From Petrimonas sp. IBARAKI (lineage in GTDB: Bacteria > Bacteroidota > Bacteroidia > Bacteroidales > Dysgonomonadaceae): a stretch of DNA of 64,000 nucleotides. The position numbers and the translations under genes are program-made. The first letter of the stretch is position 1. Each line of letters opens with the position of its first letter. Under the pieces are notes generated by a model. That model searched no databases. It was not told the origin of the DNA and was given only the letters and a program-made list of their open reading frames with translations. The DNA lies in assembly GCA_002356435.2 (NCBI GenBank), contig AP018040.2:3162001-3226000 (forward strand). The letters are read 5' to 3'. This document shows, piece after piece, positions 4,137 to 39,715 of this stretch.

Positions 4137-6089
4137 ATGAAGATATTTACATACATCGTGCTGACCACCCTATTGCTTCTCTCCTGTAGCACGACAGAGA
4201 GGAAAGAAACATTTCAGCTGTTGCCGGAACCGAAGATGCTCACCATTGACCTCTCCGGAAAGCACCTCCTCCGTCTGGGAGTACCCGATTCCTCCCTCGT
4301 CTCCGAAAAATTGGTGAATGCTATCCCCAAAGCAATCATCAATCCCGATGAAGCCTATCGCCTCAGAATTACGCCCGACAGCATCCTGATCGAAGCCACT
4401 ACCGAAAAAGGTATCTATTGGGCGCGGCAAACGCTGGCGCAAATAGTGGAATCATCCGATGGGAACTCGGTTCCTGCTCTCGAAATTACCGATTGGCCCG
4501 CTTTCCGTATCCGGGGATTTATGCACGATGTGGGGCGCAGCTACATATCGGTTGATGAAATCAAAAAACATATCCGTTTGTTGTCAAAGTTCAAGATCAA
4601 CGTTTTCCACTGGCACCTGACCGAAAACCAGGGATGGCGGCTGGAGAGCAACGTTTTTCCGCAACTTAACGATCCTGTCCATTACGAACGCCATCACGCA
4701 CAATATTATACCGTAGCCCAGGCACACGAAATTGCCGAATATTGTCGCCAACACAACATGCTGCTGATTCCGGAGATCGATATGCCCGGTCACAGCGCTG
4801 CCTTTGTGCGGGCCATCGGACACGACATGCAATCGCCTGAGGGAATGAAAGTACTGAAGCGATTGATGGAGGAAATCTGTACCGAAGTGTTTCCCGATGC
4901 ACCCTGGATCCATATCGGAACCGATGAAGTGCAGTTCACCAACCCCTCCTTTGTCCCGGAAATGGTGGCACACGTCCGGGGGCTTGGCAAAAAGGTGATC
5001 TCCTGGAACCCCGGATGGGCATACAGGTCCGGGGAGATTGATGCCACACAGCTCTGGAGTTACCGCGGCAAAGCGCAACCGGGTATTCCCGCGATCGACT
5101 CCCGGTTCCACTACATCAACCACTTCGATGCGTTCGGCGACATCGTAGCACTATACAATAGCCGCATCGCCGATGCAGAAAAGGGATCCGACAACATCGC
5201 CGGCGGGATTGTCGCTGTCTGGAACGACCGTCTTTTACCCAACGACGAACAAATAGTACTGCAAAACAACTTCTACCCCTTAATGCTTGCCTTTGCCGAG
5301 CGGACCTGGTGCGGTGGCGGGAGTGAGTATTTCGACAAAAACGGGACTATCCTGCCAACCGACGAGAACGACGCAGTTTTCAACGGTTTTGTCGATTTCG
5401 AGAAGCGGATGCTCTGGCACAAAAAACACACATTCACCGATGAGCCGTTTGCCTACGTAAAACAAACCAACGTAAAGTGGCGGATTACCGACGCTTTCCC
5501 GAATGATGGCGATCTGTTGAAATCGTTTCCGCCCGAGACCGGAATTGACGACACCTATGAATACAACGGAATCGGATACGGTTCGCACAATGCCACCGGG
5601 GCGGGAATTTACCTGCGCCACGTGTGGGGAAAAACCGTACCTGCTTTCTATAAAAACCCGCAAGAAAACCACACGGCATATGCTTATACGTGGGTTTGGT
5701 CGCCCAAAGCGCAAACGGTCGGGCTATGGACTTCCACTCAGGATTACAGCCGCTCCGAGTCCGACCTGCCACCGCCACGGGGGAAGTGGGATTACCGGGA
5801 AAGTCGTATTTACGTGAATAACAATGAGATCATGCCACCCGTTTGGGAAAATACCCATACCGGCAGAACAAACGAAATAACGCTGAAAAACGAAAATTTC
5901 CAGGCCCGCCCACCCATTCCGGTAGAACTGAACAAGGGATGGAACAGCGTTTTGCTAAAACTTCCCGTTGGAACGTTCAGTCCGTCCGAGGTGCGTTTAC
6001 AGAAATGGATGTTCACGTTTGTCTTTGTGACTCCGGACGGAAAAGATGCGGTGGAGGAACTGGTATATAGTCCGGACAGGAAAAAATAG
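4137..6089 (+). CDS. GH20 beta-N-acetylhexosaminidase lipoprotein
   Basis: 650 residues. The N-terminus is a lipoprotein signal with lipobox LLSC (Cys17). A GH20 N-terminal alpha/beta domain (~25-120) leads into the TIM barrel: FHWHLTENQGWRLE (~157-170), IPEIDMPGHS (~211-220) and the catalytic Asp263-Glu264 pair in HIGTDEV. These enzymes use substrate-assisted catalysis through the N-acetyl group to remove terminal GlcNAc or GalNAc. The ~170 residues after the barrel form an extra beta-rich region that may bind carbohydrate. In this cluster it probably trims the hexosamine exposed after sialic acid removal. The 9-base gap to the next gene indicates one operon. Confidence 0.92.
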   Translation: MKIFTYIVLTTLLLLSCSTTERKETFQLLPEPKMLTIDLSGKHLLRLGVPDSSLVSEKLVNAIPKAIINPDEAYRLRITPDSILIEATTEKGIYWARQTLAQIVESSDGNSVPALEITDWPAFRIRGFMHDVGRSYISVDEIKKHIRLLSKFKINVFHWHLTENQGWRLESNVFPQLNDPVHYERHHAQYYTVAQAHEIAEYCRQHNMLLIPEIDMPGHSAAFVRAIGHDMQSPEGMKVLKRLMEEICTEVFPDAPWIHIGTDEVQFTNPSFVPEMVAHVRGLGKKVISWNPGWAYRSGEIDATQLWSYRGKAQPGIPAIDSRFHYINHFDAFGDIVALYNSRIADAEKGSDNIAGGIVAVWNDRLLPNDEQIVLQNNFYPLMLAFAERTWCGGGSEYFDKNGTILPTDENDAVFNGFVDFEKRMLWHKKHTFTDEPFAYVKQTNVKWRITDAFPNDGDLLKSFPPETGIDDTYEYNGIGYGSHNATGAGIYLRHVWGKTVPAFYKNPQENHTAYAYTWVWSPKAQTVGLWTSTQDYSRSESDLPPPRGKWDYRESRIYVNNNEIMPPVWENTHTGRTNEITLKNENFQARPPIPVELNKGWNSVLLKLPVGTFSPSEVRLQKWMFTFVFVTPDGKDAVEELVYSPDRKK

Positions 6090-35500: not shown

Positions 35501-37894
35501 CTATCGGTTGATGGTGTACCGCAAGGTAACTCCGAAACGGGTAGGATATCCCCGTTGCACAAACTGGTTCACCTTTCCGGTGGTCATGTCCGACGCTTCG
35601 AAAAGAAACGAATGGTAATCGGTATTGAACAGGTTCTTTGTCCAGAGTTCAAGCGAGAACGCACCCTTCTCCGCAGAAATGCTGCCGTTAACCAATCCGT
35701 AAAAAGGTTGATAAAGCTCTTCTCCACTACCGCCGTTTTGAGGGGTGGTTTTATTCGACTCTGTCCAGTAAATTTTCCCGACTCCAGCATACTGAATGTT
35801 TCCTACCAGGCGATCAATAAGCGGACTGTTGGCAAAATCATACACATAACTGGCTCCCAGGCTTAGTGTGTGTCGTGGAGCAAAGGGAACATAATTTCCG
35901 GAATAATCCACATCCTCCGAAGCATCATATTTCACGAATCGTGCATCAGCAAATCCATAATCACCGTATAACGAGAAATTGTTCACTGGGGTATATTTCA
36001 CACTCAGTTCGAAACCGCTGCTTTTCGATTTCCCGGCATTTTTTACCGTGCGACCCGATGTCCCCTGATCTTCCAGCTTGATGATCTGAATGTTGTTTAC
36101 CCGGGTATAAAACAGGGCATAGGTAAGTGAGAGTTTCCGGTCGAGCATCTCATAACGTCCTCCCAACTCATACGTCCAGCTGGTTTCCGGATCATAAGAG
36201 AGCTGTTCTTCTAGCGGCACCACTTCTGCTGTTCCCGGGCCGCCAGGAGCTCCGGTTCCTCCACCCGGCATACCGCTCATCGCGTTTCGCATGATTGATT
36301 CCGCAAGGGCACCTTGCAATATTTTGGAGAATGCCTGTTCATTGTATCCTCCTGTTTTATATCCTTTCGATGCCGACAGGTAAACCAAGCCTCCGGATGA
36401 GAGTTGGTATTTCAGGGCAAACTTGGGCAAAATTTTCCAGAAGTCTTTGCTGTAACTTCCCGTCAGCAACGTATCACCTTCTATAAACATGGGAGGCATG
36501 GGGCGGTTGGGTATATTAAATACAAGATTTACATCACCGCCCTCGCTTTCCGTGGAAAAATCGATGCCGGTGTGCTCATAATCCAGCCTTAACCCTGCAG
36601 TGGCAGACAACCCTTCTAATCCGAAAAGCTCCGTAAGCGTGGACTGGTGGAAGAGCGCAGCACCCCGGGATGGTTTTGTATAAATACCGGGAAGATCAAT
36701 CCTGTCGTTGGCGTATACAATTCTCAACGGAGCACCCGTCCGCTGCATAGCCGCATCCAGGTGTCCCTGCATGGCAGCCATTCCCTCCTCTTTGATGGCG
36801 ACGGGCGTATCGATCACCCGGTGGTCATAGAACCCGAAGGCACCCACTACCCAGCGGTATTTCCGTTGTGTGCCGGACTTCACGGTAATCTCCTGGCTCA
36901 GGGAGTGTTGTTCCTGCATCTGACGAATGGAGAATACCGATTTGGGAGAGTAATCCTGATCCATCTTCATATCGTCTTTGAGGTATTGAAATCCTGTAGT
37001 AGAGTGTATACTGTAGCCGTTCCCGGTATAATCCAACGACAAACCGTTTGTAAACAAATGACGATTGTAGGAGGAGGGCTCGTTAAAGTTTGCTGCGGTG
37101 GAATCTTTATGCATATACGGGAAAGCACCTCCGGAAACATAGTCGTAATTTCCGAAGAGCAACGCTTTAAATGATGGAGTAATCTCCCAATCCAGCTTCA
37201 CCCTTCCTCCGGCATTTTCAGAAGCATCTACTTTTTTACCGGTATGGCTATTCATGAAATACCCATCATCACGCTTGTAATAGGCACCCACGGAGATTCC
37301 GAAGTTATCCGTCAGCTTGCTGTAGTTAGATGCTTTTGTCGAAAACTGGCCGTAACTTCCACCGCCTATCGTCAGGTTAGTACCCTGAAAAGTGAGCGGC
37401 GACAGCGTGTAGAGATTCACTATTCCCCCAATGGCATTTCGTCCGTAGAGTGTTCCCTGGGCACCTCGGAGAACCTCTATGCGTTGAATATCTTGAAACT
37501 CAAAATCGAATGCCGAAGGATTAAAGCTGGGCACATTATCCACGTACATGCTTACCGTCTGCGCTCCCAATCTTGCTCCGATACCACGGATGTAGATGGG
37601 AGTAGAGACTTTGGAGCCGTAAGAAGGGATAAAGAAGTTGGGGATAAATGAGCTTAAGCCCGGCAACGATTCAATCTGAGTATCGCGCAACTGTTTCGGA
37701 GAAACCACAGATACGGCAGTGGGCATATTCTTCAACTCGTTGGTTTCCTTTACAGATGAGGTAACAACCACTTCGTTCAGGTAATACACTTTAAGCGTAT
37801 CCTGTGGGTTATCGTCTTTTTCAGGCTCAATATTCCTGGAGTATGAAATAAAAATCTGGCTGACTGCCAATACAATCATTGCTAATCTTTTCAT
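35501..37894 (-). CDS. TonB-dependent receptor, FecA/CirA-like
   Basis: 797 residues, signal peptide ~1-19. No carboxypeptidase-like domain; the TonB box region (LNEVVVTSSV, ~39-48) comes straight before the plug: VSVVSPKQLRDTQIESLPGLSSFIPNF, YIRGIGARLG and IQRIEVLRGAQGTLYGRNAIGGIVNLYT. The barrel ends in GVTLRYTINR. This plug form (RGAQGTLYGRNAIGG) is that of FecA-like siderophore or small-molecule receptors. An odd Gly/Pro-rich segment near residues 535-560 (SGMPGGGTGAPGGPGT) interrupts a surface loop. It stands alone, with its own promoter, and its ligand is unknown. Confidence 0.88.
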   Translation of the reverse strand: MKRLAMIVLAVSQIFISYSRNIEPEKDDNPQDTLKVYYLNEVVVTSSVKETNELKNMPTAVSVVSPKQLRDTQIESLPGLSSFIPNFFIPSYGSKVSTPIYIRGIGARLGAQTVSMYVDNVPSFNPSAFDFEFQDIQRIEVLRGAQGTLYGRNAIGGIVNLYTLSPLTFQGTNLTIGGGSYGQFSTKASNYSKLTDNFGISVGAYYKRDDGYFMNSHTGKKVDASENAGGRVKLDWEITPSFKALLFGNYDYVSGGAFPYMHKDSTAANFNEPSSYNRHLFTNGLSLDYTGNGYSIHSTTGFQYLKDDMKMDQDYSPKSVFSIRQMQEQHSLSQEITVKSGTQRKYRWVVGAFGFYDHRVIDTPVAIKEEGMAAMQGHLDAAMQRTGAPLRIVYANDRIDLPGIYTKPSRGAALFHQSTLTELFGLEGLSATAGLRLDYEHTGIDFSTESEGGDVNLVFNIPNRPMPPMFIEGDTLLTGSYSKDFWKILPKFALKYQLSSGGLVYLSASKGYKTGGYNEQAFSKILQGALAESIMRNAMSGMPGGGTGAPGGPGTAEVVPLEEQLSYDPETSWTYELGGRYEMLDRKLSLTYALFYTRVNNIQIIKLEDQGTSGRTVKNAGKSKSSGFELSVKYTPVNNFSLYGDYGFADARFVKYDASEDVDYSGNYVPFAPRHTLSLGASYVYDFANSPLIDRLVGNIQYAGVGKIYWTESNKTTPQNGGSGEELYQPFYGLVNGSISAEKGAFSLELWTKNLFNTDYHSFLFEASDMTTGKVNQFVQRGYPTRFGVTLRYTINR

Positions 37895-38129: not shown

Positions 38130-38594
38130 ATGAAAAAAGTTGTATTGAAAACCTATGCAAAAGTATTGACTGCATTTTTCACTTTACTGGGAACAATAAC
38201 CGGATGCGATTATTTTGAACCCCGATGCGAATACGGAACACCTTCCGCAGACTTCGTGTTTAAAGGAAAAGTGGTCGACAAATCATCTCAAAAACCGATA
38301 ACAGATATCCGGATAATCCATAAGACAGGCTATGCACCGGCAAACGACACGGTAAAAACCAACGCCAATGGCGAATTTGAGTTGAAATTCAATGATTTTC
38401 CGGGAGGAAACCACTGGATTTATGCCGAAGATTTAGACGGAACAGAAAATGGTGGATTGTATGGCTCGGACTCCCTGACGGTTAACTCATCGCAAATGAA
38501 AAGAATCAAGAAAGGGGATGGAAGCTGGTATCAAGGTGCTTTTGAAAAGACCGATGCAAACTTCTCTTTACAAAAATCGGACAAGAAAGAATGA
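38130..38594 (+). CDS. Radical-SAM-associated putative lipoprotein
   Basis: 154 residues. Signal peptide with lipobox TITGC (Cys26), then DYFEPRCEYGTPSADFVFKG with a second cysteine at 33. Residues ~43-150 look like a carboxypeptidase-regulatory or transthyretin-like beta-sandwich (VFKGKVVDKSSQKPITDIRI, NANGEFELKF). From memory this is the lipoprotein family always found next to a particular radical SAM/SPASM enzyme in Bacteroidota. The stop overlaps the enzyme start by 4 bases (ATGA). The conserved C-x-Y-G-x-P-x-A-D-F segment is a candidate site for modification; that is inference. Confidence 0.75.
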   Translation: MKKVVLKTYAKVLTAFFTLLGTITGCDYFEPRCEYGTPSADFVFKGKVVDKSSQKPITDIRIIHKTGYAPANDTVKTNANGEFELKFNDFPGGNHWIYAEDLDGTENGGLYGSDSLTVNSSQMKRIKKGDGSWYQGAFEKTDANFSLQKSDKKE

Positions 38595-39715
38595 GACTCC
38601 GGAAGAACATGATCCTCTCGCTCTATCACGAGCATAAAAAGGCACAAGCCAAACTGCACAACCTCACTTATCTGTTTTGGGAATGCACGTTGCGTTGCAA
38701 TTTCAATTGCGTGCATTGCGGAAGCGACTGTGCCAAAGAGAACATCGTTCCCGACATGCCCAAGGAAGATTTCCTGAAAATACTGTCGGATATTCGCCCA
38801 CACGTAAATCCGCACAAAACAATGGTCGTCATTACCGGTGGGGAACCGCTAGTACGAAAGGATCTCGAGGAAACAGGCAGTGAGATGTACAACATGGGAT
38901 ATCCGTGGGGGTTCGTCACCAACGGATGGGGGTTATCACAGGAACGGCTCGATTCGCTCCTCCATGCGGGACTACGTTCCGTAACCGTAAGCCTGGACGG
39001 ATACACCGAAGAGTCGCACGAGTGGTTTCGCGGCAAAAAAGGATCGTGGCTCAGGGCACTGAACGCCATTTCACGGGTAGCCGGAACGCCGGGATTGAAA
39101 TACGACGTGGTGACGTGCGTAAATAAAAAGAACATCAACGATCTCCACAAGTTAAAGTCAATGCTTGTTTCGTTGGAAGTCAAACACTGGCGGCTGTTTA
39201 CCGTTTTTCCGAAAGGAAGAGCCAAAGATAACCCGTTATTGAAATTATCCACCGAAGAGTTTGTGCAATTGATGGAGTTCATCCGCGACACCCGAAAAGA
39301 AGGGAAAATAATCGCCAGCTACGGATGCGAGGGATACCTGGCTGATTACGAGATGGAGGTGCGTGACGCACCCTTCTTTTGTCGGGCAGGTATTCACATT
39401 GCTTCGGTGTTGGCAAACGGGGACATCAGTGCGTGTCCCAGCCTCCGGGGCGATTATGTCCAGGGCAACATCTACAAAGACAATTTCTGGACGGTTTGGA
39501 ACACCCGCTACCAGGTGATGCGCGACCGCCGATGGACCAAAACCGGAAAATGCGCCACCTGTAAATCCTATAAATTCTGTCAGGGGAACGGATTACACCT
39601 CCGGGATGAAAAAACGGGAGAGTTACTACACTGCCATCTGGAGATGATGGGGAAATTACAACCCGCCATAAAACAAAGGAGCATCTTCTCCAAAGCCGTG
39701 AGTTTCTTTACGTGA
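38591..39715 (+). CDS. Radical SAM/SPASM-domain enzyme paired with a lipoprotein
   Basis: 374 residues, cytoplasmic. The 4Fe-4S site is C36-x3-C40-x2-C43 (with C32 before it), followed by ITGGEPLVRKD for SAM binding. The C-terminal SPASM region has Cys264, Cys282, Cys321, Cys324, Cys330 and Cys348, enough for auxiliary clusters. Radical SAM/SPASM enzymes usually modify peptides or proteins, for example by thioether or oxidation chemistry. The only partner gene is the upstream lipoprotein, translationally coupled by a 4-base overlap, so this lipoprotein or its precursor is the likely substrate. No peptidase or exporter lies beside them. The reaction is unknown. Confidence 0.82.
   Translation: MRLRKNMILSLYHEHKKAQAKLHNLTYLFWECTLRCNFNCVHCGSDCAKENIVPDMPKEDFLKILSDIRPHVNPHKTMVVITGGEPLVRKDLEETGSEMYNMGYPWGFVTNGWGLSQERLDSLLHAGLRSVTVSLDGYTEESHEWFRGKKGSWLRALNAISRVAGTPGLKYDVVTCVNKKNINDLHKLKSMLVSLEVKHWRLFTVFPKGRAKDNPLLKLSTEEFVQLMEFIRDTRKEGKIIASYGCEGYLADYEMEVRDAPFFCRAGIHIASVLANGDISACPSLRGDYVQGNIYKDNFWTVWNTRYQVMRDRRWTKTGKCATCKSYKFCQGNGLHLRDEKTGELLHCHLEMMGKLQPAIKQRSIFSKAVSFFT

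Follow-up and report, generated by a model that had tools for sequence, protein, structure and literature searches.

Backbone splicing that excises the bulk of a tyrosine has so far been known from small peptides. The described systems most relevant to this locus are the PlpX-type spliceases, in which a radical SAM/SPASM enzyme acts on an X-Tyr-Gly target in a neighboring substrate. PlpX corresponds to IPR026482 (PMC11002830), and passages of the published work describe it as working together with PlpY. Those passages give MYG and LYG as natural splicing sites and GYG as an engineered one. Tags derived from the PlpA2 core have the sequence PIRP-GYG-LPI or PIRP-LYG-LPI, and in FtsZ 2 of the 16 placements listed there were accepted, both as GYGLP, with no LYGLP form; the natural PlpA2 site is presumably LYGLP. 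Another PlpX tag in the same passages, AVAA-GYG-VVFPG (GYGVVFP), lacks proline at the YGxP place. Spliceotides are reported to be protease inhibitors (PMC11117315, PMC10373908, citing Scott et al. 2022).

Within the window (the whole 64,000-nucleotide stretch of Petrimonas sp. IBARAKI DNA that was analyzed), a lipoprotein gene is followed on the same strand by a radical SAM/SPASM enzyme gene (Table 1). Both open reading frames are intact, and they share an ATGA overlap at positions 38591 to 38594, as the original prediction had stated. The lipoprotein scored against TIGR04134 (lipo_with_rSAM) far above the curated NCBIfam cut-off of 39.8 bits, and the enzyme scored against TIGR04133 (rSAM_w_lipo) far above the curated cut-off of 425 bits, which made each a member of its family. 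Because both thresholds are curated and the two families are named as partners, the pairing stands above chance, and the earlier proposal of a substrate and its enzyme gained support. A lipoprotein signal (lipobox judged by eye) and adjacency to a TIGR04133 gene were both present, and no difference was found between the window pair and the TIGR04133/TIGR04134 pair, whose members are annotated as adjacent in Parabacteroides and Treponema plasmid records, where the lipoprotein gene comes first. Both families are of the kind 'hypoth_equivalog' and neither name carries a reaction; the pairing is therefore already catalogued and its function is not, so that the pair could no longer be called undescribed. 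No publication was found on the names of the pair, none of the papers listed for wider terms or for spliceases concerned the lipoprotein family, and the passages of PMC8939145 and PMC7159879 held nothing on the lipoprotein family. Scott et al. 2022 (Chem), whose title refers to 'peptides and proteins', may already include this family.

Table 1. Features of the lipoprotein-enzyme pair (positions are those of the window)
Feature	Coordinates	Strand	Size and basis
Lipoprotein gene (TIGR04134), putative substrate	38130..38594	+	154 aa; ORF and NCBIfam, 108.9 bits
Signal peptide, residues 1-25, with conserved Gly21; possible recognition (leader-like) element	38130..38204	+	Alignment and hhGh pattern counts
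Lipobox Cys26 (lipidation site)	38205..38207	+	Sequence
X-Tyr-Gly-x-Pro-x-x-x-Phe motif, E34 to F42 (EYGTPSADF); predicted modification site Tyr35	38229..38255	+	Locus counts, alignments, AlphaFold2
Beta-sandwich domain, residues 39-147 (CarboxypepD_reg/transthyretin-like)	38244..38570	+	Pfam below cut-off, AlphaFold2, fold matches
Radical SAM/SPASM enzyme gene (TIGR04133)	38591..39715	+	374 aa; NCBIfam, 541.9 bits
Radical SAM cluster motif C36-x3-C40-x2-C43	38696..38719	+	Sequence, alignment of relatives
SPASM region, Cys264 to Cys348; Cys246 upstream of region	39380..39634	+	Pfam, alignments

The lipobox of the lipoprotein reads TITG-Cys26, and Cys33 follows within CEYGTPSADF. AlphaFold2 (mean pLDDT, 90.0) predicted a helix at residues 2 to 25 (the signal), a coil at residues 26 to 38 linking the signal helix to the sandwich, and strands from residue 39, in agreement with the beta-sandwich that had been predicted. 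Pfam CarboxypepD_reg matched only below its cut-off (21.9 versus 32.3 bits), and a fold search returned general beta-sandwich matches. TIGR04134 was the sole NCBIfam match at E<=1, with no Nif11 or nitrile-hydratase-like leader, and the sequence had no PDB match at E<=1. In the enzyme, Radical_SAM and SPASM both scored above their Pfam cut-offs, and the three cluster cysteines and six C-terminal cysteines expected from the prediction were all present, the latter being Cys264, Cys282, Cys321, Cys324, Cys330 and Cys348, with Cys246 as an additional one. All seven from Cys246 to Cys348 were invariant in the 167 of 171 relatives that aligned (Cys348 was readable in 165). Between positions 35501 and 44974, the ORF translations of the neighbors, read by eye, resembled a TonB-dependent receptor (minus strand), a nicotinamidase, HipA, a dipeptide epimerase, an NlpC/P60 protein and a PCMT-like protein with a signal peptide; a nicotinamidase-like ORF was found 3' of the enzyme in 6 of 171 loci. 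The same genome encodes a second TIGR04133 enzyme (G000:C1:3049291-3050316) with its own lipoprotein (pair at G000:C1:3049291-3050648; L118, about 4280-5705). The lipoprotein of this second pair, on the minus strand, reads QAC-YGTPQDF, so that the lipobox Cys is itself the X of X-Tyr-Gly.

Enzyme loci were gathered from a scan of one collection (54 loci), genome searches, stretches and plasmids, which yielded 173 places and, after identical ones were removed, 171. These rows include close relatives and the window itself, and the counts below, being drawn from related rows, are not independent. Of the 161 loci with enough sequence, 127 had a YGxP motif in an ORF on the strand of the enzyme no more than 1 kb upstream, and 11 had one on the opposite strand; in other, more distant zones of the enzyme's strand the proportions were 17/125, 14/109, 17/166 and 11/117. 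Many of the 34 loci with no upstream YGxP had a Cys-Tyr-Gly, another Tyr-Gly, or the motif further up- or downstream, and some (L129 and L134) had nothing. Among lipoprotein-like ORFs, YGxP no more than 50 residues from the lipobox (or a CYG lipobox) was carried by 151 of 212 near the enzyme. Farther away on that strand, where arrays continue, it was carried by 32 of 190, and on the opposite strand by 1 of 163. One locus (L054) held five motif lipoproteins. At two others (L156 and L166), two consecutive TIGR04133 enzymes each had a lipoprotein of their own upstream, in KYGDI and CYGTP forms. In a near-identical relative (L044:2208-2694), the lipoprotein gene carries its signal stretch twice and is shortened in its 3' part, which makes it either an assembly fault or a decayed copy. 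No third gene recurred among same-strand ORF families within 600 bases downstream in the 171 loci, the largest family occurring in 6, a result consistent with the absence of an exporter or protease stated earlier.

An alignment of 42 lipoproteins (A1) was drawn from a list chosen for YGxP, and the invariance of Y35, G36 and P38 in it is therefore no evidence. As the profile made from A1 itself holds the motif, the search was repeated with a sandwich-only profile taken from behind F42. With this profile, 168 of the 179 unique cis rows that could be read had Tyr-Gly ahead of the domain, 146 of them as YGxP, and 5 further rows could not be read. The corresponding proportions were 13 of 14 for rows in trans and 2 of 6 for enzyme-less genomes, the ORFs of these two groups still stemming from the A1-profile search. 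The motif-containing profile, read by eye, gave 5 of 184 cis rows with no Tyr-Gly, and the sandwich-only figure of 11 is preferred. Those 11 included six Alistipes-type array members (PYYV/EYYV), three with Tyr-Ala, and one weak match to another protein at L078. The Alistipes-type arrays (L057, L063, L069, L070, L071 and L073) hold one PYYV/EYYV sandwich lipoprotein each, perhaps a non-substrate.

From 249 unique lipoprotein-like ORFs with any Tyr-Gly, 201 were kept (YGxP or CYG lipobox), with 219 YGxP motifs among them. The residue X was E in 72, C in 41, M in 34, K in 21, A in 16, V in 16, L in 15 and others in 4; thus X varied and Y and G were constant, as they are in published splicing sites, and the residue between G and P was also widely variable. 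At +7, F or Y occurred in 138 of the 219 motifs, which had been selected to contain P. Cys occupied position 33 in 7 of the 42 aligned lipoproteins and 31 of the 219 motifs. Of the CxYGxPxADF element in the original prediction, X-Tyr-Gly (usually with x-Pro) proved to be conserved; the part assigned to Cys33 did not stand, and Cys33 as the modified residue, in a sactipeptide-like thioether, was rejected for that reason. Judged from the sequences, the conserved element is X-Tyr-Gly, usually X-Tyr-Gly-x-Pro (E34-Y-G-T-P in the window), between the lipid anchor and the beta-sandwich.

The carriers of this element were unlike one another. In 35 of the 201 lipoproteins the mature part was shorter than 85 residues and domain-less, and 14 of the 166 longer ones had the motif in a C-terminal tail. 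A proline-rich ORF adjoining the enzyme at L153 repeated the motif three times in tandem, twice as IYGPPPG and once as VYGPPPG, and two small ORFs beside the enzyme at L078 had MYGGP, LYGGP and VYGAP; by eye, no lipobox was seen in the motif proteins of these two loci. At L130, L140, L273, L274 and L276 there was a secreted, non-lipoprotein form in which the signal ends in IA, LA or similar and QYGxP follows, and the motif would be the mature N terminus if the cleavage site, judged by eye, is right. Since the motif moves among unlike carriers yet stays beside one enzyme, it is most simply explained as the target of that enzyme. Conservation of Tyr-Gly marks a constrained site; it does not say which reaction takes place there.

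The enzyme probably edits this short Tyr-Gly signature in an anchored surface protein, perhaps by cutting the bulk of the tyrosine from the backbone. In the reading that we favor, with a probability of about 0.55, it would act at Tyr35 before export and excise tyramine, leaving a surface-anchored ketoamide that is perhaps a protease inhibitor. Here the cytoplasmic radical SAM/SPASM enzyme would act on the unexported lipoprotein at X-Tyr-Gly-x-Pro, directly behind the lipid anchor, and would excise tyramine (about 135 Da) at X-Tyr-Gly, which we infer to be the modified site; the product would then be exported and lipidated at Cys26, and a ketoamide electrophile would be displayed on a stalk at the cell surface. 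That modification would precede export, as originally proposed, follows from a cytosolic enzyme and an exported lipoprotein. A plausible role would be that of a tethered inhibitor of proteases with X as the P1 residue, and arrays with differing X would broaden the range of proteases.

For comparison with the spliceases, we take TIGR04103 to be the same family as IPR026482. A Nostoc plasmid encodes a TIGR04103 enzyme (853 bits) 3' of a Nif11 precursor ending in ALYGLPPELF, which is a full xYGxPxxxF with Y, G, P and F spaced as in EYGTPSADF of the window. As in the window pair, X-Tyr-Gly sits in a putative substrate next to a radical SAM/SPASM enzyme, and YGxP is found both in this precursor and in the accepted PlpA2 tags. 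The two types differ in their substrates, since the putative one of the window is a lipoprotein exported by means of a signal peptide, whereas the PlpX type has a Nif11 or proteusin leader. They also differ in that PlpX uses PlpY, whereas no recurring ORF family that could be a PlpY or RRE partner was found downstream in the 171 TIGR04133 loci. The window enzyme was 26.8% identical to the Nostoc enzyme, which has one SPASM cysteine that is absent from TIGR04133, Cys246 being extra in the latter. In a Bacteroidales locus, KYGYP occurs six times in a protein (L218:2948-3596) encoded beside a TIGR04103-like enzyme (218 bits, under the cut-off), which makes this protein a candidate precursor of a multi-site spliceotide. 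The L218 enzyme resembles that of the window in having Cys at the places of Cys47 and Cys246; it groups, however, with PlpX relatives and not with TIGR04133, and its carrier is unlike the lipoprotein. No convincing XYG peptide was seen beside the other TIGR04103-like Bacteroidota loci (L213-L217 and L219-L224). Three tandem DUF1843 peptides lie beside PlpX-like GDL enzymes at L204:2156-2869 and L205:2028-2743, each with a near-N-terminal Tyr followed by G, A or M (MYGGA, PYGVA, MYAAG, MYMAT), possibly a target site.

The enzyme itself was less telling. Its NCBIfam scores outside its own family were 135 bits for TIGR04053, 129 for AhbD, 117 for NirJ2 and 112.8 for TIGR04103, the last far under a cut-off of 725 and therefore not a membership. 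Because these scores do not put PlpX nearest, the proposed chemistry rests more on the substrate motif than on the enzyme. In a tree of 55 sequences, drawn without AhbD and NirJ2, TIGR04133 formed one clade (99/99) on a long stem, separate from PlpX. A wider group (96/95) took in this clade, PlpX with its relatives, and a single ACGX enzyme on a long branch; MftC, PqqE, NirJ, pseudo-SAM and TIGR04053 fell outside it, with long branches among them, and the ACGX enzyme was the first to join TIGR04133 (92/85). When 10 TIGR04133 enzymes were aligned with 23 others, they had two features in common with most of the PlpX side, namely HCGS following the cluster (HCAS in L219-L224) and a GY(Y/F/L) segment ahead of the SPASM part; W200 was common to them, the PlpX side and also TIGR04053. 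By molecule name, no splicease was present among the PDB sequence matches of either enzyme searched, which were BlsE, SkfB, PqqE and others. The best 50 fold matches in the PDB, which included anSME, leave the reaction unsettled.

Those fold matches bear on the possibility that Tyr35 (or X34) is modified with no excision, by epimerization to D-Tyr or by an intrapeptide bond between Tyr and a neighbor. The epimerase EpeE was among them at rank 28, and the cross-linkers SuiB, SkfB and PqqE ranked higher, at 1, 4 and 10. Epimerases use extra cysteines as hydrogen donors, and three conserved cysteines outside the clusters, Cys47 and Cys246 (167 of 167 relatives each) and Cys176 (166 of 167), could serve in that way. 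The glycine kept after the tyrosine, in contrast, is the mark of a splicease, and a cross-link needs a second fixed residue, for which neither the variable X, nor the variable spacer between G and P, nor the F/Y at +7 qualifies. We consider such a modification rather unlikely. The SPASM enzymes PqqE, MftC, NirJ and TIGR04053 have fold and clusters in common with the window enzyme; PqqE and MftC act on Tyr in peptides, and the substrates of enzymes of this type have fixed partner residues. For lack of a second fixed residue, a three-residue cyclophane or a PqqE-like cross-link is disfavored.

A further question concerns the signal peptide. Gly21 was present in all 42 rows of A1, for which it was not a selection criterion, and the pattern hydrophobic-hydrophobic-Gly-hydrophobic (hhGh), picked after inspection, occurred in 153 of 201 substrate signals, whereas of the remaining lipoproteins at these loci 15 of 59 had it. 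Two further clades had different conserved signals by eye. The enzyme may thus read the signal peptide as a leader. The same Gly21, together with D101, which was likewise in 42/42 aligned lipoproteins and not a selection criterion, would also suit a scheme in which Tyr-Gly-x-Pro, adjoining the lipobox as it does, serves only for recognition or docking and the change is made elsewhere, for example in the signal peptide, the lipobox Cys or the beta-sandwich. Against this, the motif is shared by short lipoproteins that have no room for a sandwich and by the L153 and L078 proteins with no visible lipobox, and tandem copies fit a target better than a dock; we regard docking as improbable.

Co-occurrence was counted in 393 sampled genomes of the order, which are relatives and include many MAGs. 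The enzyme was found at E<=1e-80 in 94 of them. With the lipoprotein profile at E<=1e-8, 66 genomes had both genes, 6 the lipoprotein only, 28 the enzyme only and 293 neither; at E<=1e-5 the numbers were 69, 15, 25 and 284, and the nine lipoprotein-only genomes thereby added had ORFs of 385 to 1,076 residues. The close association anticipated by the original prediction was thus observed. Several enzyme-only genomes hold motif lipoproteins of another shape that the profile missed (e.g., L119, L131, L136, L137 and L141). In five of the six lipoprotein-only genomes (E<=1e-8), no radical SAM protein exceeded 55 bits to TIGR04133, and in four of these five the homologue had no Tyr-Gly (L259, L262, L264 and L265): two kept the flanks with Tyr replaced by Asn (GNGSPYAKF and DNKTPHADY), and two were distant. 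Tyr-Gly was likewise missing from one homologue, L271, whose genome does have the enzyme but at a distant place. Genome G618 counts against a strict rule, as it has no TIGR04133 enzyme and yet keeps Tyr-Gly in two proteins. In G416 (L263:5370-5782), an intact CYGTP lipoprotein gene adjoins a TIGR04133 gene reduced to the first 42 residues and roughly the last hundred; it lacks its middle and is not truncated by the contig end, and is either a decayed copy or an assembly fault. G124 scored over the TIGR04134 cut-off, with no TIGR04133 match among the matches listed. It is very unlikely that the motif serves the mature lipoprotein (as a turn, in sorting or in partner binding) and that the enzyme acts on something else: homologous proteins have many features in common anyway, and motif proteins do occur in G618 and beside the shortened G416 copy, but the motif tracks the enzyme across unlike carriers, with regular adjacency, and of the 5 enzyme-less genomes with a homologue, 4 lack it.

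Excision of tyramine at Tyr35 is thus the reading that we carry forward for the window pair. Its extension to a large and so far unrecognized class of lipoproteins, spliced in Bacteroidales and also in some Treponema, is more tentative. In this class, TIGR04133 enzymes would cut out tyramine with the signal peptide as leader and no RRE partner, arrays would present tethered ketoamides with different P1 residues, and proteins with a CYG lipobox would carry the ketoamide directly on their lipidated N-terminal cysteine. The proposal offers a concrete test of function for an enzyme family present in 94 of the 393 genomes. If it is true, such enzymes may supply spliceases for protein labeling that need no RRE partner, and backbone splicing by radical SAM enzymes would extend beyond secreted small peptides to anchored surface proteins with a built-in electrophile.
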